Assembly: GCF_025149945.1 (NCBI RefSeq)
Contig: NZ_JALXVH010000021.1
Location: forward strand, 1-46,676
DNA length: 46,676 nt
Direction of reading: 5' to 3'
From: Kocuria sp. p3-SID1428
Lineage (GTDB): Bacteria > Actinomycetota > Actinomycetes > Actinomycetales > Micrococcaceae
This document shows positions 20,046 through 34,327 of the stretch, in pieces; the first letter of the stretch is position 1; every line of letters begins with the position of its first letter. Both the position numbers and the translations under genes were made by a program. Under the pieces are notes generated by a model. It was not told where the DNA came from. It saw only the letters and a list, made by a program, of their open reading frames with translations, and did not search any database.

Positions 20046-21721
20046 GACCCGTCTCCCTTCGATCCGGACGAGCGCTGCGGGAACAGCCCGTACGGGGTGC
20101 CGTTGCCGTCCCAGTTCAGGAGGTTCACGCGCCCCGACATCTCGGTGGCCCCTGCGGGCGCCTCCGCGGTCTGGCGCGCCTTGAGGGCGGCGAAGTTCTC
20201 GACCGCCACCGGGGTGGGACGCCCCGAGGCCTCGCCCAGTCCGCCCATCTGGCCCATGCCCGGGCCGCCGTCGCCGTCCAGGGAGCAGCCCATCTCCTCG
20301 AGGTTGTGGGCGTCCTCGGTATGCGCGGCGGGGATGACGTAGCGCTCGGAGTACTTGGCGATCGCCATGAGGCGGTACATCTCGTACATCTGCGCACCGG
20401 TCATGCCCACCGCCTGGGCGATGGACTCATCGGCCTGGTCCCCCAGGGTGATGTCGCGCATGTAGGAGCGCATGGCGGCCAGCTTGCGCAGCACGTCCGT
20501 GATGATGTCCGTGTCCCCGGCCGTGAACAGCTCGGCCAGGTACTCCACGGGGATGCGCAGCGAGTCGATCGCCCCGAACAGGACGTCGAGATCCTGGCCG
20601 TCGTGGCCTTGCGCGGACAGCAGGTCGACGATCGGCGACAGCGGCGGGACGTACCAGACCATCGGCATGGTGCGGTACTCGGGGTGCAGGGGCAGAGCCA
20701 CCCGCAGCTCCTTGGCCAGCTTGTAGACCGGCGACTTCCGGGCGGCGTCCATCCAGTCCTCGGGGATGCCGTCGGCGCGGGCCTGGCGCTGGACCTCTGG
20801 ATCGTTCGGGTCGAGCATCAGGTCGAGCTGGGCCTCGTAGAGGTCCTTCTCATCCGGGGTCGCGGCGGCCTCGGTGACGCGGTCGGCGTCGTAGAGGAAG
20901 ATGCCGATGTAGCGCATGCGGCCGACGCAGGTCTCGGCGCACACGGTGGGGATGCCGACCTCCACACGGGGGTAGCAGAACGTGCACTTCTCGGCCTTGC
21001 CGGTCTTGTGGTTGTAGTAGATCTTCTTGTACGGGCAGCCGGTGATGCACTGGCGCCAGCCGCGGCACTGGTCCTGATCGACCAGCACGATGCCGTCCTC
21101 GGCGCGCTTGTAGATCGCCCCCGACGGGCACGCCGCCATGCAGGACGGGTTCAGGCAGTGCTCGCAGATCCGCGGCAGGTGGAACATGAAGGTCTTCTCG
21201 AAGTCCAGCTTGATGCGGTCCTCCGAGTCGCGGCGCAGCTTCTGCAGCACCGGGTCCTGGGCCTCCGTGGCCTCGACGCCGCCCAGGGAGTCGTCCCAGT
21301 TGGCCGACCACTCGACCTTGGTGTCCGCACCGGTGATCAGCGACTTGGGCTTGGCCACCGGGAAGTCGTCCGAGGCCGGGGCCGCCACGAGGTTCTCGTA
21401 GTCGTAGGTCCACGGCTCGTAGTAGTCGTCCAGGTGCGGCTGCACGGGGGAGGCGAAGATGCCGAAGAGCTTCTGCAGGCGATTGCCCGACTTGAGCTGC
21501 AGGTTGCCGCGGCGGTTGAGCTTCCAGCCGCCGCGCCACTTCTCCTGGTCCTCGTAGCGGCGCGGGTAGCCCTGCCCGGGACGGGTCTCCACGTTGTTGA
21601 ACCAGACGTACTCGGTGCCGGCGCGGTTGGTCCACGCCTGCTTGCACGTCACGGAGCACGTGTGGCACCCCAGGCACTTGTCGAGGGTCATGACCATCGC
21701 GGTCTGAGCCATGATGCGCAT
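20042..21721 (-). CDS. narH: Respiratory nitrate reductase beta subunit
   Basis: Electron-transfer subunit with four iron-sulfur clusters, linking NarI hemes to NarG. The 559-residue protein has the four cysteine groups: CLGCHTCSVTCKQAW near the N-terminus, then CEHCLNPSCMAACPSG, CRGWRQCITGCPYKKIYYN, and CTFCYPRV with the later CAETCVGR. The Trp in CRGWRQC replaces a cysteine and marks the [3Fe-4S] cluster, as in other NarH proteins. The start codon overlaps the narG stop by one base (TGATG), and the stop overlaps narJ. Reading upstream past 21721 would enter narG and is not supported. Confidence 0.97.
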   Translation of the reverse strand: MRIMAQTAMVMTLDKCLGCHTCSVTCKQAWTNRAGTEYVWFNNVETRPGQGYPRRYEDQEKWRGGWKLNRRGNLQLKSGNRLQKLFGIFASPVQPHLDDYYEPWTYDYENLVAAPASDDFPVAKPKSLITGADTKVEWSANWDDSLGGVEATEAQDPVLQKLRRDSEDRIKLDFEKTFMFHLPRICEHCLNPSCMAACPSGAIYKRAEDGIVLVDQDQCRGWRQCITGCPYKKIYYNHKTGKAEKCTFCYPRVEVGIPTVCAETCVGRMRYIGIFLYDADRVTEAAATPDEKDLYEAQLDLMLDPNDPEVQRQARADGIPEDWMDAARKSPVYKLAKELRVALPLHPEYRTMPMVWYVPPLSPIVDLLSAQGHDGQDLDVLFGAIDSLRIPVEYLAELFTAGDTDIITDVLRKLAAMRSYMRDITLGDQADESIAQAVGMTGAQMYEMYRLMAIAKYSERYVIPAAHTEDAHNLEEMGCSLDGDGGPGMGQMGGLGEASGRPTPVAVENFAALKARQTAEAPAGATEMSGRVNLLNWDGNGTPYGLFPQRSSGSKGDGS

Positions 21722-24700
21722 CAGTACTGGACCTCCTGCGAGCGCTTGCGGACGACCGAGGTGACATCTCGGTTGTTGCCGGTGGGGCCGTGGTAGTTGA
21801 AGGCCCAGGACTGCTGGGCGTAGCCGCCCACCATGTGGGTGGGCTTGAGCATGATCCGAGTGACCGAGTTGTGAATGCCGCCGCGGCGGCCGGTGGCCTC
21901 GGACTTGGGGACGTCGATCGTGCGCTCCTGCGCGTGGTGGACGAAGACCGCTCCGGCGCGCATGCGGCTGGTGACGATCGCCCGTCCGACGAACACGCCG
22001 TTGGTGTTCACGCACTCGACCCAGTCGTTGTCCTTGACCTGGATCAGCGCGGCGTCCTGGTCCGACATCCACACCGACGTGCCTCCGCGCGAGAGCGAGA
22101 GCATGAACAGGTTGTCCTGGTACTCGGAGTGGATGGACCACTTGTTGTGCGGGGTCAGGTAGCGCACGGCCACCGACAGCTCCCCGCGCTCGCCGAGCCT
22201 CGGCTCGCCGAACAGCGCCGCATTGTTCAGCGGCGGGCGGTAGGTGGGGAGGTTCTCCCCCATGTCCGACATCCAGTCGTGGTCCAGGAAGAAGTGCATG
22301 CGCCCGGTGAGCGTGTGGAACGGCTTGAGGCGCTCGATGTTCACCGTGAACGGGGCATAGCGCCGCCCGCCGGTCTCCGAGCCGGACCACTCCGGGGAGG
22401 TGATGACCGGTACCGGGGCGGCCTGGGTGTCGGCGAAGGTGATCTTCTTCTCCTCCGAGCCCAGCGCGAGGTCGTGCAGCTGCTTGCCCACGCGCTTCTC
22501 GAGGGTCTTGAAGCCCTGTACCGCCAGTTCGCCGTTCGTGGTCCCGGACAGCGCCAGGATGGCCTCGGCCATGCGGGCGTCGGTCTCGAGCGCGGGACGG
22601 CCCTCGGCCGCTCCGGAGTCGAAGACGCCGTGCTTGCGCCCCAGCGCTGCGACCTCGTGGCCGACGTCGAAGGTGATGTTCTTAGTGGTCAGACCCAGCT
22701 TGTCCGCCAGCGGGCCGAGGGCCACGAACTTCTGGCCGATAGCGGTGTAGTCGCGCTCGACGACCTTGAGGTTGGGGAAGTTCTTCCCCGGCACCGCGGG
22801 CAGGTCCGTGCCGCGCCACTCGGGCACGTGCCCGCCGGGCTGGTTGATCTGCCCCGGGGTGTCGTGGGTGATCGCGGTGGCCACCAGGTCGTGCCGGGTG
22901 TCCAGGCGGCCCTTGGCCAGGCGGGCGACCTCGTCCGCGAGCAGCCGGAACAGCTCATGATCCGTCTTGGCCTCCCACGGCGGGGTGATCGCCGGGTTGA
23001 AGGCGTGGACGTACGGGTGCATGTCCGTGGAGGAGAGGTCGAACTTCTCGTACCAGGTGGCGGCCGGGAACACGACGTCGGAGAGCAGCGTCGAGGACGT
23101 CATGCGGAAGTCCGCCGAGACCAGCAGGTCGAGCTTGCCCTCCGGGGCCTGCTCGTGCCAGGCGACGTCGCGCGGCTTGTGGTCCACGTGGTCCCGGCCC
23201 AGCACATTGTGGTGCGTGCCCAGTAGGTGCTTGAGGAAGTACTCCTCGCCCTTGGCGGAGGAGCCCAGCAGGTTCGAGCGCCACAGCACGAGCGTGCGCG
23301 CCCAGTTCGCCTCCGCGTCCGGGTCCTCGACCGCGAACTGCAGCTTGCCGGCCTTGGCCTGATCGGCGACCCACTGGCCCTCCGATTCGGCATCCCCGCG
23401 CTCGACGGCAGCCGCTGCGGCGTCGGCGACGTCGAGCGGGTTCTGTGTGAACTGCGGATAGAACGGCATCCAGCCCAGACGCGTGGACTGGGCCACGACG
23501 TCGGCGGTGTGCATGCCGTCCAGGTGGCCCTTGGCCAGCGGCGACTGCAGGTGCGCCGAGGAGTGGCCGTCCTGGCGGAACTGGTCGGTGTGCATGTACC
23601 AGAACGCCGTGCCGATCATGAACCGCGGCGGGCGCGACCAGTCCGAGGCCGAAGCCATGGTGGCCCAGCCGGTGATGGGTCGGGCCTTCTCCTGGCCGAC
23701 GTAGTGCGCCCAGCCGCCGCCGTTGCGGCCCTGGCAGCCGCACAGCATGAGCATGGCCAGGATCGCGCGGTAGGTGACATCGCCGTGGTACCACTGGCAC
23801 AGCCCGCCGCCCAGGATGATCATGGAGCGCCCGCCCGAGCGCTCCGCGTTGGCGGCGAACTCGCGGGCCACCCGGATCGCGGCCTCGGCAGGCACGGAGG
23901 AGATCGCCTCCTGCCAGGCCGGGGTGTAGGCGGTCTCGGCGTCGTCGTAGCCTCCCGACCACTGCCCCGGCAGGCCGTCGCGTCCGACCGCGTACTGGGC
24001 GAGCATCAGGTCGAAGACCGTGGTGACGGTGCGCCCGGCGACCGTGCGCACGGGCACACCGCGGCGGACCACGGAGCCCTCCCCGGTGTCGTCGACGAAG
24101 GCCGGCAGCGAGATCTCCGCGGCCGTCCCGTCCCAGTCGCCCAGATCCATGATCGACAGCGCCGGATCGTGGCCCTCGAGGTCCAGGTTCCAGTCGCCCT
24201 CGTCCTGGGCGTTGTAGCGGAAGCCCATGGAGCCCTTGGGGATGAAGGCCTCGCCCGTGGCGCGTTCGAGCATCACGGTCTTGAACGCGGGATCGGCCTG
24301 ATCGGAGCCCAGGTCCTCGGCGGTGACGAACTTGCCCGGGACCACCTGGCCGTCGTCGCCGGTGACCAGGGTGACCAGGAACGGCAGGTCCGTGAACTGC
24401 TTGACGTAGTCCTCGAAGAACGGGGTGCGCTTCTGCACGAAGTGCTCCGTGAGGATGACCTGGCCCATGCTCATGGCCAGCGCGGCATCGGAGCCGGGCT
24501 GGGCGGGCAGCCACTCGTCGGCGAACTTGGTGCTGTCCGCGTAGTCCGGGGAGACTGAGACGACCTTGGTGCCGCGGTAGCGCACCTCCGCGACCCAGTG
24601 GGCATCCGGGGTGCGGGTCACCGGGATGTTGGAGCCCCACATCATGAGGTAGGTGGCATCCCACCAGTCCCCTGACTCCGGGACGTCCGTCTGATCGCCG

Positions 24701-25458
24701 AAGACCTGCGGCGAGGCGACCGGCAGATCGGCGTACCAGTCGTAGAAGCTGTTCATCACGCCGCCGATGAGATTGATGAACCGGGCGCCGGCGGCGTGGG
24801 AGACCATGGACATGGCCGGGATCGGCGAGAAGCCGACGCAGCGGTCCGGGCCGTAGGCGCCGATCGTGTGCACGTGGGCCGCGGCTGTCATCTCGAGGGC
24901 CTCCTGCCAGGACGCGCGCACCAGTCCGCCCTTGCCGCGGGCCTGCTGGAACTCCCGGCGCTTGGCAGGGTCGCCCACGATCGAGGCCCAGGCCGCCACG
25001 GCGTCGCCGCCGTGGGCCTCGCGGGCCTGGCGGTACATCTCGAGCAGCACGCCGCGGACATATGGATAGCGCACGCGCGTGGGCGAGTACGTGTACCAGG
25101 AGAAGGCGGCGCCGCGGGGGCATCCGCGCGGCTCGTACTCGGGGCTGTCAGGACCCACCGAGGGGTAGTCCGTCTCCTGGGCCTCCCAGGTGATGATCCC
25201 GTCCTTGACGTAGACCTTCCATGAGCACGACCCGGTGCAGTTCACGCCGTGGGTCGAGCGCACGACCTTGTCGTGGCTCCAGCGGTTGCGGTAGAAGGAG
25301 TCGCCCGTGCGGCCGCCCTCCCGGAACTCGGCGCGGCCGTCCGCGGTCTGCTCGCGACGGGTGAAGAAGCGGCCGGTCTTCAGCAGCGCCTGGCTGGCGG
25401 GGCCGTCGACGCCTGCGGCGTGGGCAGTATGCGCTCCGGAAGTCGTATTCGTGCTCAT
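21721..25458 (-). CDS. narG: Respiratory nitrate reductase alpha subunit
   Basis: Catalytic subunit that reduces nitrate to nitrite at a bis-MGD molybdenum centre on the cytoplasmic side. At 1245 residues it is full length. The FS0 [4Fe-4S] ligands are His70, Cys74 and Cys78 in HGVNCTGSCSW, and Cys113 in EPRGCPRGAAF. The molybdenum-ligand aspartate region is FYDWYADLPVASPQ (about 238-251), followed by DQTDVPESGDWWD and WGSNIPVTRTPDAHW. No functional twin-arginine signal is present, as expected for this cytoplasm-facing type. The operon order is narGHJI-narK. The 300-base upstream region holds an FNR-like palindrome, suggesting induction at low oxygen. Confidence 0.98.
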   Translation of the reverse strand: MSTNTTSGAHTAHAAGVDGPASQALLKTGRFFTRREQTADGRAEFREGGRTGDSFYRNRWSHDKVVRSTHGVNCTGSCSWKVYVKDGIITWEAQETDYPSVGPDSPEYEPRGCPRGAAFSWYTYSPTRVRYPYVRGVLLEMYRQAREAHGGDAVAAWASIVGDPAKRREFQQARGKGGLVRASWQEALEMTAAAHVHTIGAYGPDRCVGFSPIPAMSMVSHAAGARFINLIGGVMNSFYDWYADLPVASPQVFGDQTDVPESGDWWDATYLMMWGSNIPVTRTPDAHWVAEVRYRGTKVVSVSPDYADSTKFADEWLPAQPGSDAALAMSMGQVILTEHFVQKRTPFFEDYVKQFTDLPFLVTLVTGDDGQVVPGKFVTAEDLGSDQADPAFKTVMLERATGEAFIPKGSMGFRYNAQDEGDWNLDLEGHDPALSIMDLGDWDGTAAEISLPAFVDDTGEGSVVRRGVPVRTVAGRTVTTVFDLMLAQYAVGRDGLPGQWSGGYDDAETAYTPAWQEAISSVPAEAAIRVAREFAANAERSGGRSMIILGGGLCQWYHGDVTYRAILAMLMLCGCQGRNGGGWAHYVGQEKARPITGWATMASASDWSRPPRFMIGTAFWYMHTDQFRQDGHSSAHLQSPLAKGHLDGMHTADVVAQSTRLGWMPFYPQFTQNPLDVADAAAAAVERGDAESEGQWVADQAKAGKLQFAVEDPDAEANWARTLVLWRSNLLGSSAKGEEYFLKHLLGTHHNVLGRDHVDHKPRDVAWHEQAPEGKLDLLVSADFRMTSSTLLSDVVFPAATWYEKFDLSSTDMHPYVHAFNPAITPPWEAKTDHELFRLLADEVARLAKGRLDTRHDLVATAITHDTPGQINQPGGHVPEWRGTDLPAVPGKNFPNLKVVERDYTAIGQKFVALGPLADKLGLTTKNITFDVGHEVAALGRKHGVFDSGAAEGRPALETDARMAEAILALSGTTNGELAVQGFKTLEKRVGKQLHDLALGSEEKKITFADTQAAPVPVITSPEWSGSETGGRRYAPFTVNIERLKPFHTLTGRMHFFLDHDWMSDMGENLPTYRPPLNNAALFGEPRLGERGELSVAVRYLTPHNKWSIHSEYQDNLFMLSLSRGGTSVWMSDQDAALIQVKDNDWVECVNTNGVFVGRAIVTSRMRAGAVFVHHAQERTIDVPKSEATGRRGGIHNSVTRIMLKPTHMVGGYAQQSWAFNYHGPTGNNRDVTSVVRKRSQEVQY

Positions 25459-25499
25459 AGCTCGAGGCTATCGACGAGGCCGAGTCGCTGAGGAATGAT

Positions 25500-25517
25500 T
25501 TCCGGCAGTTGCCGGAA
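25500..25517. promoter_or_regulatory. Palindrome near the narG transcription start
   Basis: TTCCGGCAGTTGCCGGAA: perfect 8-bp arms around GT. It lies where transcription from the FNR-like promoter would begin, so it could be an operator for a second regulator or a hairpin at the 5' end of the message. TTCCGGAA recurs at about 25710. Confidence 0.5.
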
Positions 25518-25541: not shown

Positions 25542-25557
25542 CTTGATCTGCGTCAAG
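25542..25557 (-). promoter_or_regulatory. FNR-like box upstream of narG
   Basis: CTTGATCTGCGTCAAG, with arms CTTGA and TCAAG; 9 of 10 specific bases match TTGAT-N4-ATCAA. Its centre is about 91 bases from the narG ATG and about 40 bases from the start implied by the TGCAAT hexamer, as for a class II activator site. The same arms recur at moaA. Confidence 0.65.
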
Positions 25558-25759
25558 GAACGGCGGATCAATATCTGACAGCGGCGTGATCACGCGGATC
25601 CATAGCCTTCAGGATGGCCAGGCAAACCTGAGAAGAATTAGCACACAATCGCGTTGCCTAATGCTCGCGCATCATTTCTTCTCGAGCTGATTCCGAGAAT
25701 GCAAGTCATTTCCGGAAGATGCCACGGGGTCTCCGGCGGTCGACGCCCGGCGAGGAACG

Positions 25760-26149
25760 TCAGCCAGCGTTCGCACCCTCATCCGCCTCGCGCTCGCGCT
25801 GGCGCGCCGACGGATTCGAGGCCACCGCGACGACGGCCGTGACCAGCAGCAGGAGGAAGGTCCCGTAGAACATCCACACCGACGGATAGAACCAGAACAG
25901 CGTCATGCCCCAGCCCGCGAGCGTGAGCACCAGCGCGAGCACCGACAGCACCAGCAGCCCCAGCCGGACGGTCGCGAAGCGCTCGGCGCGCCCGCGCAGC
26001 CCGTAGAAGGCGGCCAGGCCCATCAGGAAGAGGGTGAAGAACAGCTGCCCGGTGACCGTGATCGCGTCCTGGTGGTACTGATGCATCCCGAGCGCCTGGA
26101 TCACGGCGGCGATCGCGAACAGGGCGGGGGCGATGACGGCGGACTTCAT
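25760..26149 (-). CDS. Small four-helix membrane protein, function unknown
   Basis: A 129-residue protein with four predicted transmembrane segments (about 3-20, 30-48, 59-81 and 85-109) and a charged C-terminus ending in Arg/Glu residues. A histidine-containing GMHQYHQD loop follows the first segment. I recognise no named family. The ATG at 26149 has AGGAG ten bases upstream, and TAGACT on the minus strand (26192-26187) could be its -10. The open frame extends further upstream but runs antisense to the PadR remnant and is not coding. It lies between the nar operon and a degraded region; no functional link to nitrate respiration is visible. Confidence 0.72.
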   Translation of the reverse strand: MKSAVIAPALFAIAAVIQALGMHQYHQDAITVTGQLFFTLFLMGLAAFYGLRGRAERFATVRLGLLVLSVLALVLTLAGWGMTLFWFYPSVWMFYGTFLLLLVTAVVAVASNPSARQREREADEGANAG

Positions 26150-26194
26150 GCGGGGAGATCTCCTGGGGCCGGTGACGGACGCGGTCAGTCTAGA

Positions 26195-26434
26195 GCCGAG
26201 GCCGGGCTCGGCGAGATCAAGGGCGGCACGCTCTACCCCCTGCTCGCCCGCCTGGAGACCCGCGAGCTCGTGACGATCGAGTGGCGCACCGGCGAGGGCG
26301 GGCCCGGGCGCAAGTACTTCCGCCTCACCGACGCCGGCCGCGCCGAGCTGGCCGACGCCCGCACCGCCTGGTCGACCTTCGCACGCGCCGTCGACGCCCA
26401 TCTGGAGCTCGACCGAGCTCCGTCGCGCCCCTGA
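26195..26434 (+). pseudogene. PadR family regulator, 5' truncated remnant
   Basis: The frame reads GLGEIKGGTLYPLLARLE, then PGRKYFRLTDAGRAEL, which is the second half of a PadR winged-helix domain and its C-terminal helix. The first 30 to 40 residues of a normal PadR protein, including the first helices and start codon, are missing. The preceding bases are the promoter and 5' end of the opposing membrane-protein gene, so a deletion probably joined the two. No start codon with a ribosome binding site lies near the remnant. PadR genes usually precede a HAAS-domain membrane protein, exactly what follows at 26461, so this was once a regulator-partner pair. Confidence 0.8.
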
Positions 26435-26460
26435 ACTCCACCCTTCATCAGGAGGTCACC

Positions 26461-27216
26461 ATGAGCACAGCACCCGATTCCCTGGCCGATGAGCACGAGG
26501 TCTGGCAGCGGCCCTTCGTGCGGATGCATCGCCGCTGGTGCGATGACTTCATCCTCGAGCTGCGCCTGCGGGATGTGCCCGGCGCACGGATCGGCGACCG
26601 CCTCGCCGAGGTCGAGTCGCACTGCATCGAGACGGGCACCGACCCGGAGGAGGCTTTCGGCGACGCCCGGGAGTATGCCCGGGAGGTCGGCGACGCAGAT
26701 GAGCCGGTGCGGGACACGGGCGTCCTGCGCGTCACTCTGATCTCCCCGACGGCCCTGGTCGTCTTCCTCACAGGCATCGACGCGACGAACCGCTGGGCCC
26801 GAGGCGAGGCGCTGTCCTTCAACCTGGTGGAGCTGGTCATCCTGGGCCTGCTGGTCACCGGAGTCGCCGCGCTGCCCTTCGTGCTCGGACCGCTGCTGCG
26901 CAGGACCTGGCTCGGCATCGTCTTCTTCGCGGGGCTCTTCCTGCTGGGCGCGCTGCGCGCGCTGGCCGGTCTGCTGCCGCTGGCTTCTGTGGTCGATGGC
27001 ATCCCCGCGGCCCCCGTCTCCGTGGGTGCCCTCCCGATCCTGTGCGTGCTCTCGGCCCTCGAGATGCGCGAGCTGTCCGACGGTGACTGGGTCACCTCAC
27101 CCTTGCGCGCCCCGGACGGCGCGCGAACGCCGGCGCGACGCGGCGTGGTGCTGATCGCCTGGATCTTCCCGATCGCCTTCGTCGCGCTGGGCGCTCTGGC
27201 CTGGATCGTCGCCTGA
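26461..27216 (+). CDS. HAAS domain-containing membrane protein
   Basis: A 251-residue protein. Residues about 22-77 (RRWCDDFILELRLRDVPG and IGDRLAEVESHCIETG, then PEEAFGDAREYAREV) match the helical HAAS/DUF1700-type domain found in proteins paired with PadR regulators. Some five hydrophobic segments follow (about 91-107, 119-141, 148-172, 179-201 and 230-250). In intact systems the PadR gene represses the pair; here only a PadR fragment remains upstream, so control is probably lost or changed. The ATG has AGGAGG five bases upstream and the frame is undamaged. The role is not established; a sensing or envelope-stress role is inference. Confidence 0.75.
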   Translation: MSTAPDSLADEHEVWQRPFVRMHRRWCDDFILELRLRDVPGARIGDRLAEVESHCIETGTDPEEAFGDAREYAREVGDADEPVRDTGVLRVTLISPTALVVFLTGIDATNRWARGEALSFNLVELVILGLLVTGVAALPFVLGPLLRRTWLGIVFFAGLFLLGALRALAGLLPLASVVDGIPAAPVSVGALPILCVLSALEMRELSDGDWVTSPLRAPDGARTPARRGVVLIAWIFPIAFVALGALAWIVA

Positions 27217-27234
27217 GCGGAATCCGGCCCGGGC

Positions 27235-28403
27235 TCAGAGGTGAGCGCAGGTGGAGACCGGGGCCCTGCCGTCGAACCGGGCCTGGAGGAAGCTGAGGAT
27301 GTGCGGCTGGGACGTGACGTAGCCGCCCACGTGCCCGGCACCCAGCGTGGGGGCCAACTGCACGCTCGCACCCTGCGCGCACCACCTGCCGGCGAGCTCG
27401 CGCCCCGTCCGGTCGGAGCGATCGCCGAGGTGGTGCACTCCCCGACCGTCTCCGTGTAGAGCTGCACGCCGCGGGGGTTCAGGAACGACGCCGGCGAGAT
27501 GCCCTCGGACTCGATCAGACCGCTGAGCGTGTACATGAGGAAGCCGTTGCACAGGCCGCTGTCGATCTGGGCCGCGACCTGGTGCAGATCCGCGGGCACC
27601 GCACCCGCCGCGATCGCGCGCACCTTCAGCTCATGAGCATAAGAGGCAGCCAGCTCGCCCGCTGAGGCGGCGGCCCCACCGCCCTGCGAGTAGCCCACGA
27701 TCCCGACCGGCGTCTGCGCGCTGGTCCCGCCCATGCAGGCGTCGCGCGCGGCGCGGGTCGCGTCGAAGACGGCGTGACCCTGGTCCAGGCGGTCCATGTA
27801 GGCGTGCGGGCCCTGCATCCCCAGGCCGATGTAGTCCGTCACGACCACGTCGTAGCCGGCCAGCAGCAGGGCGTTGATGGCCGCGGCCTCGTACTCGGTG
27901 CCCTGCGCGCCCTGATGGCTGGGCGCGCACTGATCCGCCACGCCCTGCGTGCCCACCGCGTAGGTGATCAGCGGACGGGCCCCGCTGCCCCGTCACGGCG
28001 AGCCCGACTCCAGGAACGAGCCCATCACCGGGACGATCGCCCCGTCCGAGTCGGTCCTGGTGTACATGATCCGCGACTGCGCCTCACCCAGCCGCACGGC
28101 CCGCGCAGGGCCGAGGCAGAACGGGGAGGCCTCGTGCTTGAGCAGGCTCGCGGGCGAGTCGGGCGGCTGCGACGGCGCGACGTAGAACGGCCCCAGCGGC
28201 TGGTCCGCCGCGCTGTCGGCCGCCCCGACGGCGAGGGCCTGAGACGGAGCAGGGGGCGCGGTCTCCGGGACCGCTCCGACAGCAGGCTCGGCGGCACTCG
28301 ACGACGACTCGGGTGCGGCCGCAGCGGGCACGAGGCCGCCGAGACCGAGTGCGGTGACGGCCAGGGTCACCGTGAGGCAGGACAGCGGCGCGCGGAGCTT
28401 CAT
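27235..28403 (-). pseudogene. Secreted lipase family protein, degraded
   Basis: Remains of a secretory lipase-type alpha/beta hydrolase. The ATG at 28403 begins an intact signal peptide (MKLRAPLSCLTVTLAVTALG, then a GLVPAAAA cleavage region). The frame continues to LESGSP, meets a TGA at 27995-27993, and resumes in the same frame as RGSGARPLITYAVGTQG; relatives have Trp there, so TGG to TGA is likely. The nucleophile elbow GYSQGG is intact. Near 27430, after VGECTTSAI, the frame shifts to GRWCAQGASVQLAPTLGAGH with the catalytic His. Roughly 70 residues expected between them, including the region of the catalytic Asp, are absent. Two or three independent lesions make sequencing error an unlikely full explanation. 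Confidence 0.85.
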
Positions 28404-28612
28404 GAGGACCTCGACGCGGGTGCGGATGCAGCTGGTGGCCGGAGCGCAGCCCCCGCCCGCTTCGCCTGCGACGTGCGGCGACGATCCCGCGTCACGTTCA
28501 AGACAGAAGTGCATTCTTGGCCTCGAGGCCTCAGCCCGAGGCCGCGGATGTGATATGTACCATAGGTTGAGCGCCGCCATGGCGCTCCCCAGACCCCGTT
28601 CCAGGAGGACCC

Positions 28613-28972
28613 ATGACCATCGTGATCGCCCGCGCCGGCACCGCCGAGGGCCAGGCCGCCCTGGACGCCGGACTGGCCGAGGCAGCCCGCCGCTCGGAGG
28701 ACGCCGTGATCTTCCACCTCGGCGGGGACGATTCGGATACCGAGGCCCAGGAGCTGCAGGGCGTCAAGGTCGCTCACCAGTTCCCGGACGCCCGCGGCCG
28801 CGACGCCGTCGGCGATCTGCTGGATGCCGCCGAGGCCGCGGACGCCTCCCTGATCGTCGTGGGCATCCGCCACCGCAGTCCCATGGGCAAGCTGCTGCTG
28901 GGCAGCGCCGCGCAGCAGATCCTGCTCGAGTCCGCCTGCCCGGTGCTGGCCGTCAAGCCCGAGCGCCGCTGA
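28613..28972 (+). CDS. Universal stress protein (UspA family)
   Basis: Single-domain Usp of 119 residues, slightly short for the family. The C-terminal nucleotide-binding pattern is present as VVGIRHRSPMGKLLLGSAAQQIL (the GxRxx-G-x(9)-G-S type, here in two parts GIRHRS and GKLLLGS), followed by ACPVLAVKP. That pattern suggests an ATP-binding type. AGGAGG lies four bases before the ATG. It stands alone between the degraded lipase and moeA, and a very strong hairpin follows. The specific stress cannot be read from the sequence; low-oxygen induction is common in actinobacteria but no FNR-like box is seen upstream here. Confidence 0.93.
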   Translation: MTIVIARAGTAEGQAALDAGLAEAARRSEDAVIFHLGGDDSDTEAQELQGVKVAHQFPDARGRDAVGDLLDAAEAADASLIVVGIRHRSPMGKLLLGSAAQQILLESACPVLAVKPERR

Positions 28973-28984
28973 GGTCTCTCCTCC

Positions 28985-29023
28985 AGAGCCCGGCACCTCG
29001 CCCTCCGCGAGGTGCCGGGCTCT
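28985..29023 (+). terminator. Terminator after the universal stress gene
   Basis: A perfect stem of 16 bp (AGAGCCCGGCACCTCG and its complement), extendable to 17 bp, with a five- to seven-base loop, 13 bases after the stop. It is followed by a short T-containing tail (GATCGTTCC). Confidence 0.9.
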
Positions 29024-29134
29024 GATCGTTCCCTGGACCGCCCGCCCGGTGAGGGGTCGCCTCTGCCGCCCTTCACCGGCAGAAGGCCTGCACGACAGAC
29101 CCTTCACGGCCGCGGGCATCCGCGTCCGAGCACC

Positions 29135-30448
29135 TCAGAGCAGACGGACCTCCACGGGCTCGCCGGCGGGCACCGATCCCTCGCCGGGGCCCAGGACGAT
29201 CAGGGCGTCGGCCTGCGCGGCCGTGGCCAGCAGGTGCGAGCTGTACCCGCCGAGTCGGTGCGCCTGCCGTCCGTCCCAGCGGGCCCGCACGATCCGAGAC
29301 CGACCGGGCAGCCGCTCGAGATCCTCGGCGCACGCGGCGCTGATCGTGCGCGGCGCCTCGGCTCCGGCACCCGCCGCCGCGAGCGCCGGGCGCAGCAGGG
29401 CCTCCGCCGAGACCCAGGTGGACACCGGATTTCCGGGCAGGCAGACGACCGCCGTGCCGTCGGTCATGGCCAGGCCCTGCGGACCGCCCGGCTGCATGGC
29501 CACGTGCAGGAACTCGCTGTCCGGTTCGGCGCCCAGCACGCGGCGCACGACCTCGAAGGCCCCCTCGGAGATCCCGCCGGAGCTCACCCAGAGATCGGGC
29601 GCCTCGAAGTCGGAGGAGGCCAGCAGGCGGCGCAGCTCATCGTCGTCGTCGATCACGTGACGCACCGCCGTGACACGGCACCCCATCCGCTCCAGCTGCG
29701 CCCGCAGCAGCGGCGCATTGGCATTGTGGATCTGGGCGGCGGCCGGCTCCTGCCCGGGCGCGACCACCTCGTCCCCGGTGGTCAGGACGCCGACCCGCAG
29801 CGCAGGGCGCACCCGCACCCGCTGCAGGCCCAGAGCCGCGATCGCCCCGATCGCCACGGGGCTCAGAACCATCCCGGCACCCAGCACGGACTCGCCGCGC
29901 GCGACATCCGAACCTGCCGGGCGCACGAAGCGCCCCCTGGGCTGCTCCGCCGGCACCTGCACCACGGCACCGTCGGGGAGGAACTGCGCCGGTGCGACCT
30001 CCTCGACCGGCACGACGGCGTCCGCACCGACCGGGATCGGCGCCCCGGTCATCACGGGCGCGGCCGTCCCGGGCGCCAACGGGGCGGGCTCGTGCCCGGC
30101 GGCACCGGTCGCGGCCACCGTCAGCTCAACGACGCCCGGCTCAGCACCGCCTGTCTGGGCATCGGCCTGCGAGCCGCCGTCGTGCAGAGGACCGCCCTGC
30201 GTGTCGGCAGCGCGCACGGCGTAACCGTCCATCTGGGAGTCGTCGAAGCGCGGCAGCGGGATCGGGGCCGTCAGCTCCTCGGCCAGCACCCGACCGGCGG
30301 CATCCTCCAGCGCGACCTCCTCCGTCGCCCGGTCTGACCACCGGCTGCGCTCGATGACGCCCTGGATCGCGGCGATGTGCTCGTCCACGCCGCGCGATCG
30401 GTGCCCGTGCCTGCCGCCGTGCCCTGCCATGTCGGCCACCCCTGCCAT
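29135..30448 (-). CDS. moeA: Molybdopterin molybdotransferase MoeA
   Basis: Inserts molybdate into adenylated molybdopterin to give Mo-molybdopterin. The 437-residue protein has the canonical N-terminal DDSQMDGYAVRA, the glycine-rich GVLTTGDEVV, the MoCF-binding SSGGISEGAFEVV, and CLPGNPVSTWVS. This is the orthodox MoeA of the window; the second copy at 32978 departs from the motifs. Two starts are possible: ATG 30448, and ATG 30430, which has AGGGGTG six bases upstream. The two lie in a direct repeat (CCCTGCCATGTC read on the plus strand). It diverges from moaA across a gap with an FNR-like box, whose spacing favours moaA rather than this gene. Confidence 0.93.
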   Translation of the reverse strand: MAGVADMAGHGGRHGHRSRGVDEHIAAIQGVIERSRWSDRATEEVALEDAAGRVLAEELTAPIPLPRFDDSQMDGYAVRAADTQGGPLHDGGSQADAQTGGAEPGVVELTVAATGAAGHEPAPLAPGTAAPVMTGAPIPVGADAVVPVEEVAPAQFLPDGAVVQVPAEQPRGRFVRPAGSDVARGESVLGAGMVLSPVAIGAIAALGLQRVRVRPALRVGVLTTGDEVVAPGQEPAAAQIHNANAPLLRAQLERMGCRVTAVRHVIDDDDELRRLLASSDFEAPDLWVSSGGISEGAFEVVRRVLGAEPDSEFLHVAMQPGGPQGLAMTDGTAVVCLPGNPVSTWVSAEALLRPALAAAGAGAEAPRTISAACAEDLERLPGRSRIVRARWDGRQAHRLGGYSSHLLATAAQADALIVLGPGEGSVPAGEPVEVRLL

Positions 30449-30467
30449 GTCCGCCCCGCTGCTCCGG

Positions 30468-30483
30468 CTTGAGCCGCGTCAAG
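30468..30483 (+). promoter_or_regulatory. FNR-like box upstream of moaA
   Basis: CTTGAGCCGCGTCAAG, with the same arms (CTTGA, TCAAG) and spacing as the narG box. Its centre, 30475.5, is exactly -41.5 from a start at 30517, which is the start predicted by the TATGGT hexamer at 30505-30510. Confidence 0.65.
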
Positions 30484-30504: not shown

Positions 30505-30510
30505 TATGGT
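30505..30510 (+). promoter_or_regulatory. moaA promoter -10
   Basis: TATGGT matches TATAAT at 4 of 6 positions and sits at -12 to -7 from 30517. No -35 hexamer is present; the FNR-like box takes its place, as at activator-dependent promoters. Confidence 0.5.
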
Positions 30511-30552: not shown

Positions 30553-30659
30553 AAGCAAGTCCGGGCCACCGCAGCAGGATCCGCAGACTGCGCCGATAGC
30601 CTGGCAGACACGACCAGCACCGGCTGCAGCAGATCCGGGAAGGGAACGAGGTGAGCCCC

Positions 30660-31781
30660 ATGACCACCGCACTCGGGATGCCAGGCCTGCGCACGCGCCT
30701 GGAGCCCTCACCCGCGGATCCGTCGCAGGGACTGGTCGACTCCTTCGGGCGCCGGGCCGCCGATCTGCGCATCTCCCTGACCGACAAGTGCAATCTGCGC
30801 TGCACCTACTGCATGCCCGCCGAGGGGATGGACTGGCGTCCGTCCTCCGAGCTGCTCACCGCCGCCGAGATCCAGCGCCTGGTGCGCATCGGCGTGCAGC
30901 GCCTGGGCATCGTGGAGCTGCGCCTGACCGGAGGCGAGCCCCTGATCCGTCCGGATCTGGAGGAGATCATCGCCGGAGTGCACCGCGAGCACCCCGAGCT
31001 GCCGATCTCCCTGACCACGAACGCGATCGGGCTGGACCGTCGCGCCGCCGGGCTCCGGGAGGCCGGGCTGACGCGGCTGAACGTCTCGCTGGACACCCTG
31101 GACCGGGAGACCTTCGCCCGTCTGGCCCGTCGCGACCGGCTCCCGCAGGTGCTGGCGGGGATCCGTGCCGCTCAGGAGGCGGGTCTGGAGCCCGTGAAGA
31201 TCAACTCCGTGCTGCTGCGCGGGATCAACGACCACGGCGCAGCCGAGCTGTTGTCCTGGAGCCTCGAGCAGGGGCTGCACCTGCGCTTCATCGAGCAGAT
31301 GCCCCTGGACGAGGACCGCACCTGGACGCGCCGAGGCATGATCACGGCCGCGGAGATCCGGCAGCTGCTGGGACGGCGCTTCCGTCTAGATCCTCGCCCG
31401 GTCCCCCGCGCCGGAGCCCCGGCCGAGCTGTGGGACGTGCGCGCCCTCGGAGCAGACCTGTCGGAGGAGCCGCTGGGCACGGTGGGGATCATCGCGTCGG
31501 TGACCGAGCCGTTCTGCGGCGACTGCCGCCGCACCCGCCTGACCGCCGAGGGCGAGATCCGCTCCTGCCTGTTCTCCCATGAGGAGTTCGGGCTGCGCGA
31601 CCTGCTGCGCGGGCAGACCGAGCAGGGCGCGCTGCCGCAGGAGCGGGCGGACGAACTGATCGCCGAGCGCTGGCGCGCGGCCATGTGGATCAAGCCCGCG
31701 GCGCACGGCATGGATCGCACCGGACTGGGCGACGACGGCTTCATCCAGCCCGAGCGCTCCATGTCCGCGATCGGTGGATGA
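30660..31781 (+). CDS. moaA: GTP 3',8-cyclase MoaA
   Basis: Radical SAM enzyme that, with MoaC, starts molybdenum-cofactor synthesis from GTP. The 373-residue protein has both iron-sulfur sites: Cys44, Cys48 and Cys51 in CNLRCTYC, and Cys286, Cys289 and Cys303 in CGDCRRTR...RSC (CX2CX13C). LRLTGGEPLIRPDL is the SAM-binding region. The chain ends in the functionally important Gly-Gly (MSAIGG). The ATG at 30660 has GAGGTGA five bases upstream; a GTG at 30651 inside that element is the alternative. It heads moaA-moaD-mobA-moeA2 under a predicted FNR-type promoter. Confidence 0.96.
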   Translation: MTTALGMPGLRTRLEPSPADPSQGLVDSFGRRAADLRISLTDKCNLRCTYCMPAEGMDWRPSSELLTAAEIQRLVRIGVQRLGIVELRLTGGEPLIRPDLEEIIAGVHREHPELPISLTTNAIGLDRRAAGLREAGLTRLNVSLDTLDRETFARLARRDRLPQVLAGIRAAQEAGLEPVKINSVLLRGINDHGAAELLSWSLEQGLHLRFIEQMPLDEDRTWTRRGMITAAEIRQLLGRRFRLDPRPVPRAGAPAELWDVRALGADLSEEPLGTVGIIASVTEPFCGDCRRTRLTAEGEIRSCLFSHEEFGLRDLLRGQTEQGALPQERADELIAERWRAAMWIKPAAHGMDRTGLGDDGFIQPERSMSAIGG

Positions 31782-32977: not shown

Positions 32978-34327
32978 ATGAGCGATCAGCCGCAGACCAC
33001 CCGCACTCTTCGCAGCCCCGACTGGGCGCAGGCCCGCCAGGCGGCCTTCGACGCCGCTGCGGCGCTGCCGCCGCACTGGCTCCCTCTCGGGGAGACGGTG
33101 GGCGAGACCCTGGCCGAGGACCTGCGCGCCGAACGTCCGGTGCCCCACTACACCTCCTCGGCCATGGACGGCTGGGCAGTGAACGGACCGGGCCCCTGGC
33201 GGATCAACCGCGGCGAGTACGAGCAGATCGACCAGCGCGTGGCCTGGGCCCGCACCGAGGAGCCGCAGCTCAAGCCCCCGCGATCGCTGGCCGTCGGCGA
33301 GGCCGCACCGATCGTCACGGGCGGACTGGTCCCGTTCAGCACGAGCGCGGTGCTGCGCTCGGAATGGGGCCTCGAGGACGGCGACTCGCTGCGCCTGAGC
33401 CCCGAGGCACCGGAGGGCGCCCCCGAGGAGGGACAGAACCTGCGCCGGGCAGGCCGCGAAGCCGAGACCGGAGAGCTGCTGATCCGCGCCGGGACGCGGC
33501 TGACCCCGGGGCACGTGGCCTTCGCGGCCACCACGGGCCTGGACATGCTCCCGCTGCTGCGGCGCCCGCGCGTGACCCTGCTGCTGACCGGCGACGAAGT
33601 CGACGAGGACGGCGTCCCGGAGCCGGGACGGGTCCGGGACGCCTTCGGCCCGCAGCTGCCGCAGTTCGTCCACCTCCTGGGCGGTCAGGTGGATGCCGTG
33701 CACCGCGTGGGCGATGACCGCGAGCAGATGCTCGAGCGGCTCACCGGCTCCGCGGTGGGCGCGGAGTCCGTGCTGGACTCCCGCGCGCAGCTGATCATCA
33801 CCACGGGCGGCACGGGCCGCTCGACCGCGGATCATCTGCGCCCGTCGCTGGAGGACAGCGGCGCGCATCTGCTCATCGACGAGCTGGGCCTGCGCCCGGG
33901 CCACCCCGCGCTGCTTGCCCGCATGCCGGAGGACGGCCCGTTCGTCCTGGGCCTTCCCGGCAACCCGCTGGCGGCCATGACCACCCTGATGCTGCTGGGG
34001 GCGCCGCTGCTGGCCGGGCTCGGCGGCAACGTCATCCCGCCGCTGACCACGGTGCGCCTGACCCGCGAGCTGCCGGCCTCCAAGACGGATCGACTGGCAC
34101 CGGGACTGGCCTTCGTGGCTGGCGCCGCCGTCTCCGGGACCACGATCACCGACCTGAGCGAAGGCGCTGACGCCCAGGGCACCGAGCTGCCCAGCGCGGT
34201 GGCGCTGTCACGCGCGGGCTCCGACCAGCTGCGCGGCTTCTCGCAGGCCAACGTGCTGCTGCTGATCCCCGCCGACGGCGTGCGGCCGGGCGAGCCCGTC
34301 CAGGCGCTGCCGCTTCCCTGGCTCTGA
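32978..34327 (+). CDS. Divergent second MoeA-like protein
   Basis: MoeA-fold protein of 449 residues, last gene of the moaA operon, with GAGGAG four bases before the ATG. It retains the overall layout: YTSSAMDGWAV, LLLTGDEVDEDG, LGLPGNPLAAM and a C-terminal beta domain. The most diagnostic stretch departs from the norm. Where MoeA has a GGVS-type molybdopterin site with an acidic residue, this protein reads TTGGTGRSTADHLRP, and the N-terminal part has Trp for Tyr in AMDGYAV. It also carries an acidic insertion at about 150-160. It may have a specialised role in metal insertion, or act with MoeA at 29135; a catalytic role is not certain. Confidence 0.85.
   Translation: MSDQPQTTRTLRSPDWAQARQAAFDAAAALPPHWLPLGETVGETLAEDLRAERPVPHYTSSAMDGWAVNGPGPWRINRGEYEQIDQRVAWARTEEPQLKPPRSLAVGEAAPIVTGGLVPFSTSAVLRSEWGLEDGDSLRLSPEAPEGAPEEGQNLRRAGREAETGELLIRAGTRLTPGHVAFAATTGLDMLPLLRRPRVTLLLTGDEVDEDGVPEPGRVRDAFGPQLPQFVHLLGGQVDAVHRVGDDREQMLERLTGSAVGAESVLDSRAQLIITTGGTGRSTADHLRPSLEDSGAHLLIDELGLRPGHPALLARMPEDGPFVLGLPGNPLAAMTTLMLLGAPLLAGLGGNVIPPLTTVRLTRELPASKTDRLAPGLAFVAGAAVSGTTITDLSEGADAQGTELPSAVALSRAGSDQLRGFSQANVLLLIPADGVRPGEPVQALPLPWL

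Follow-up and report, generated by a model that had tools for sequence, protein, structure and literature searches.

Two copies of the palindrome CTTGA-N6-TCAAG were identified in a 46,676-nucleotide stretch of Kocuria sp. p3-SID1428 (contig NZ_JALXVH010000021.1; this whole stretch is the window below), one upstream of the nitrate reductase gene narG and one between the molybdenum cofactor genes moeA and moaA. Judged from sequence comparison, both are likely to be operators of a single FNR-like Crp/Fnr protein of this Kocuria clade, which would activate narG, moaA and the flavohaemoglobin gene hmp as a small regulon. The sites look like genuine docking sites, since in relatives they occur together with one such protein. 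FNR-like wiring of narG and moaA in this lineage had been suggested by an earlier inspection of the letters (the sequence-only reading), and conservation and regulator co-occurrence lend support to that suggestion.

Exact matching placed the two copies at 25542-25557 and 30468-30483, confirming both noted sequences. The narG copy is on the minus strand (-99 to -84 from the ATG; CTTGATCTGCGTCAAG at those coordinates, CTTGACGCAGATCAAG on the narG strand), and the moeA/moaA copy on the plus strand (CTTGAGCCGCGTCAAG). These were the only exact matches in the window, which bears out the statement that it holds no third copy. With one mismatch allowed, four matches were obtained, against a mean of 0.32 (standard deviation 0.57) in dinucleotide shuffles. 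Simulated windows contained on average 0.005 exact sites under a first-order model and 0.015 under a third-order model, and 0 of 400 windows under each model had two sites. A chance origin of the two copies was rejected, as shuffles and simulated windows fell far below the observed counts. The claimed nearness to TTGAT-N4-ATCAA held for the core TTGA-N6-TCAA, present in both sites, but not for the inner T and A, of which the narG site has one of two (T...G) and the moaA site neither (G...G). Placement before the nitrate reductase operon stood; the second site lies between the divergent moeA and moaA, and its spacing to a -10-like box favours moaA.

Across 27 genomes of the genus, one Crp/Fnr protein (62-100% identity) was found in five, namely K. 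palustris (G001), K. subflava (G002), K. soli (G003), G130 and G209 (orthologue loci L196-L200), and every other match was at most 35% identical. With at most one mismatch, the palindrome was present upstream of narG in 5/5 regulator-bearing genomes vs 0/15 other narG loci, and upstream of hmp in 5/5 vs 0/25 others (0/24 without L248, a fragment that starts at residue 135 and shows no promoter). At moaA, with at most two mismatches, it was present in four of the five, one of these with two mismatches, vs 0/24 others. The Fisher probabilities for narG, hmp and moaA were 6e-5, 6e-5 and 4e-4 (kinship ignored; initial locus set). For narG, 20 of 22 rows were used, two G204 fragments being dropped; for hmp, 30 of 32 (20 initial and 10 later; two rows had no locus); for moaA, 29 of 34 (25 initial and 4 later; four had no locus and one was an internal fragment). 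The absence of a site is weaker at some other loci because these are partial or carry a stop. Two-mismatch matches among the controls were limited to one at narG of G004 (K. coralli; at -318) and two at a single hmp locus (L255). Conservation in relatives thus extended to the narG site in all five regulator-bearing genomes and to the moaA site in all except K. palustris.

The five regulator-bearing genomes and K. coralli form one clade, with K. coralli nested inside; tree support for this is 1.0 with NarG or the combined data and 0.83 with MoaA. No regulator was found in the K. coralli genome, whose completeness is not stated (best match 34%), and no site was found at its narG (at most one mismatch) or at its single hmp match, which is 44% identical and carries a stop. 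In its moaA promoter the -10 box and the right half of the palindrome survive, but the left arm is degraded. The distribution of regulator and sites would most simply be read as a single gain and a single joint loss.

NarG of the window is 94% identical to that of K. palustris and 97% to that of G130, and trees of both NarG and MoaA join the window first to G130 and next to K. palustris. G130 was the nearest genome examined, and its whole-genome scan (2.9 Mb; 2,897,960-bp contig) returned three exact copies, all upstream of genes: narG (at -100), moaA (in the moeA/moaA promoter) and hmp, the last adding a third target promoter. The probability of three random sites striking three 250-bp promoters was approximately 4e-12, with hmp picked after being seen. 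K. palustris has two exact copies, at narG and hmp. In total, 15 exact sites occur in the five regulator-bearing genomes, of which narG accounts for five, hmp for four and moaA for one.

Promoter architecture was compared across five promoter sets assembled by hand. A TAnnnT box follows the moaA palindrome by exactly 21 bp in 5/5 species with a moaA site, the window included, and the hmp palindrome by the same distance in 3/5. Over offsets of 5 to 44 at the moaA and hmp sites, TAnnnT was present in 8/10 at 21 and in at most 1/10 at any other. With the -10 box set at -12 to -7, the palindrome centre falls at -41.5 at both genes, which we take to be a class II activator position. In the window, the proposed moaA -10 box (TATGGT, 30505..30510, plus strand) lies exactly 21 bp after the palindrome and precedes moaA (GTP 3',8-cyclase; 30660..31781, plus strand; ATG start, alternative GTG at 30651; TIGR02666 345.5 bits, cut-off 284). 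Aligned moaA sites had no mismatch in G130, one each in G209 and K. subflava, and two in K. soli. The divergent moeA-like gene (29135..30448, minus strand; MoeA_actino 323.5 bits, below the cut-off of 560) has its listed start 20 bp from the palindrome; the site was not assigned to it, no TAnnnT being read by eye at 21 bp on the moeA side. An RNA element at moaA was also rejected, as Rfam gave one tRNA as the sole match in the window. Separately, two MoeA-like genes, both under NCBIfam cut-offs, flank moaA (29135-30448 and 32978-34327); the latter is 99.6% identical in G130, vs 97% for NarG.

The gene narG (nitrate reductase alpha subunit; 21721..25458, minus strand; TIGR01580 1549 bits, cut-off 1084) heads a same-strand run with narH, narJ, narI, an MFS transporter, a MoCF/MoaE protein and a ThiF/rhodanese protein. 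Five related genomes have the palindrome at a matching position (-100 to -102). The proposed narG -10 box (TAGCCT, 25465..25470, minus strand) lies 6 nt before the ATG, implying a leaderless start. TAnnnT-N6/7-ATG was present in 6/6 species with the palindrome and at 13/15 loci without it, giving 19/21 leaderless-looking Kocuria narG promoters with the window included (L256-L276). Because TAnnnT sits 6-7 nt before the ATG, narG is probably leaderless, and the palindrome centre would then lie 91.5 to 94.5 bases upstream of its start (near -92 in the window). This would presumably fit a class I activator site, and a literature search on this returned no paper.

Between the narG site and the narG -10 box lies an 18-bp perfect palindrome, TTCCGGCAGTTGCCGGAA (25500..25517), which has no other match of its kind in the window; shuffles had 0.02 on average. 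It contains GGCAAC and may be a second operator. GGCAAC recurs at about -55 of narG in 5/6 species (TGCAAC in K. palustris), and GGCAAC or GTTGCC occurs twice immediately upstream of the hmp palindrome in 5/5 genomes (L226-L230). A second regulator common to narG and hmp is possible. Wide conservation of the FNR-like site at narG was rejected: TTGA-N6-TCAA occurred within 450 bp upstream of narG at 4/80 loci, three in Kocuria and one in Arthrobacter with other flanks. Another element, roughly TATTCCCGCANGTCA and found by eye, is shared by narG promoters without the palindrome (L262, L265, L267-L269, L271); the narG promoter therefore seems, from its sequence, to have been rewired within Kocuria.

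The sequence-only reading had pointed to a Crp/Fnr gene with N-terminal cysteines as the thing to look for, and in the relatives such a gene was found, with an FNR-type recognition helix. In the five orthologues this helix reads GTTPETLSR or GTTPETISR and aligns with GLTVETISR of E. coli FNR, matching FNR residues E209, S212 and R213. It is unlike GCSRETVGR of E. coli CRP or GASRETVNK of the Kocuria GlxR-like protein, and where a GlxR/CRP-type helix has R-E-x-x-x-(R/K), the regulator has P-E-T-L-S-R. Among the 120 homologues listed, a cysteine aligned with FNR C29 in 117 and with C122 in 119; FNR C20 and C23 have no aligned counterpart in the regulator. The protein thus has the one N-terminal and one central conserved cysteine of the FLP type. 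The Kocuria clade has in addition a Cys-x-Cys near the N-terminus (its two cysteine columns are filled in 10/120 and 11/120, two clade entries having a later start). The NCBIfam Fnr model scored 37.8 bits, below its cut-off of 228. An AlphaFold model, good overall (mean predicted local distance difference test score 89.7) but not in the first residues (about 46), had GlxR and M. tuberculosis CRP as its best PDB matches, with FNR from rank 31. By these sequence comparisons, the regulator is not a canonical FNR. Among the K. soli neighbours typed, no linkage of its gene to nar genes was seen.

Under the proposed regulon, a regulator dimer would bind CTTGA-N6-TCAAG through its FNR-type recognition helix (E-T-x-S-R), activating moaA and hmp as a class II factor at -41.5 and narG, with its probably leaderless promoter, as a class I factor at about -92. 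Nitrate reductase, molybdenum cofactor synthesis and nitric oxide (NO) detoxification would then be switched on together. The conserved cysteines would most likely sense a fall in oxygen or a shift in redox state; the chief alternative signal is NO. A more far-reaching history is conceivable, although we think it doubtful: a two-cysteine FLP-like regulator may have been turned, via the N-terminal Cys-x-Cys, into an FNR-like [4Fe-4S] sensor with at least four cysteines, arisen independently of proteobacterial FNR and wired to narG, moaA and hmp, sensor and sites later being lost together in K. coralli.

Several observations weigh against a small FNR-type regulon. The regulator is known from five relatives, not from the window's own strain, and the co-occurrence rests on few events because those five genomes form one clade. 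The 600 bp upstream of each of the five regulator genes contain no site (at most two mismatches), and autoregulation was rejected on that ground. K. palustris lacks the moaA site, and that of K. soli is weak, with two mismatches. At the 21-bp position, hmp has CACGAT in K. palustris and AACGAT in G130, and TAnnnT follows the narG palindrome by 21 bp in 0/6 species. Of the 15 exact sites in regulator-bearing genomes, four are inside long open reading frames and one, in G209, is intergenic without a clear target. Across the 27 genus genomes, 39 exact sites were counted vs 161 for a reversed control pattern, and a 43-base pattern including the -10 box gave, with one mismatch, 18 matches vs 27 for the control (12 genomes).

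These counts speak for the reading that the two copies are a coincidence, as do the copies inside open reading frames, and the sequence-only reading had itself named chance frequency genome-wide, or a mostly intragenic distribution, as grounds for giving up its proposal. By count, the bare motif is indeed not enriched, yet all copies in G130 lie at narG, moaA and hmp, and the motif is not mostly intragenic across the five genomes. The signal is in the placement of the copies, not their number. In 197 genomes of the family, 82 matches to TTGA-N6-TCAA with TAnnnT were counted vs about 54, both by hand. Set against the simulated windows, the narG placement kept in six species, the three G130 targets and the fixed spacing at moaA and hmp, coincidence is scarcely credible.

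It is improbable, though less so, that a different protein such as GlxR binds the sites, or that the regulator represses rather than activates. The available part of PMC12343034 describes activation of narKGHJI by GlxR in C. glutamicum. Repression is also compatible with the sequence. GlxR-like proteins, however, are present in genomes with and without sites, and their helix (R-E-T-V-N-K) suits TGTGA-N6-TCACA, not TTGA-N6-TCAA; distribution and helix together disfavour GlxR as the binder. The predicted site centres, -41.5 and about -92, are places from which activators act.

Closer in weight, and a real though lesser possibility, is that the same regulator and sites respond to nitric oxide or nitrite, like DNR/NnrR of proteobacterial denitrifiers and, by function, ArnR of Corynebacterium. 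The gene hmp is among the targets in 5/5 regulator-bearing genomes, and NO is a serious rival signal because ArnR pairs narG and hmp in Corynebacterium and DNR uses the same motif. According to the part of PMC12343034 that is accessible, narG and hmp are jointly controlled there by ArnR, a NO-sensitive repressor, and GlxR acts on nar; the DNR motif is given as CTTGATnnnnATCAAG in the accessible part of PMC1274295. Common control of narG and hmp is shared with the Corynebacterium system, but ArnR, a winged-helix repressor of the [4Fe-4S] type, is not related to Crp/Fnr. With DNR/NnrR, the operator motif and nitrogen-oxide targets are shared, although in the PDB the regulator matches Crp proteins better than it matches DNR (50.2 bits). 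Against NO or nitrite as the signal, the near-universal counterparts of C29 and C122 suit a cysteine-based sensor, although NO might react with an Fe-S cluster as well.

The E. coli FNR regulon includes nar and moa genes among its targets. The proposed Kocuria regulon resembles it in the core operator TTGA-N6-TCAA, the helix residues and these targets, and differs in that the regulator aligns with two of the four cluster cysteines and has the extra Cys-x-Cys, in the activator-like placement of the hmp site, and in lineage. Two cysteines are described as common in Gram-positive FNR-like proteins, with their Fe-S activation disputed, in the accessible part of PMC5039431. The Kocuria regulator shares with such proteins its N-terminal and central cysteine and is set apart by the added Cys-x-Cys and by nar, moa and hmp as targets.

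Elsewhere in the Micrococcaceae, a small HMA protein gene is preceded by the same palindrome, again with TAnnnT after 21 bp (L085, L091, L083, L130-L156, L308-L321). A P-type ATPase often accompanies it, and several genomes have a divergent Crp/Fnr paralogue there. This heavy-metal paralogue has the palindrome, the 21-bp spacing and a TPETLSR helix in common with the Kocuria regulator, but is 33-35% identical to it in most pairings, and its site adjoins its own gene and the HMA protein gene, often with the P-type ATPase. One of the sites in these other Micrococcaceae precedes a ZIP-like transporter gene.

Judged by titles and abstract openings, with most subscription papers outside the coverage, no description of such a regulon in Kocuria was found in the literature. 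If correct, Kocuria would control narG, moaA and hmp by a compact FNR-type regulon, unlike Corynebacterium with its ArnR and GlxR, and with a visible history of gain and loss. One regulator gene and three promoters are named as directly testable, and the extra cysteines would offer a test case for the evolution of an oxygen or NO sensor.

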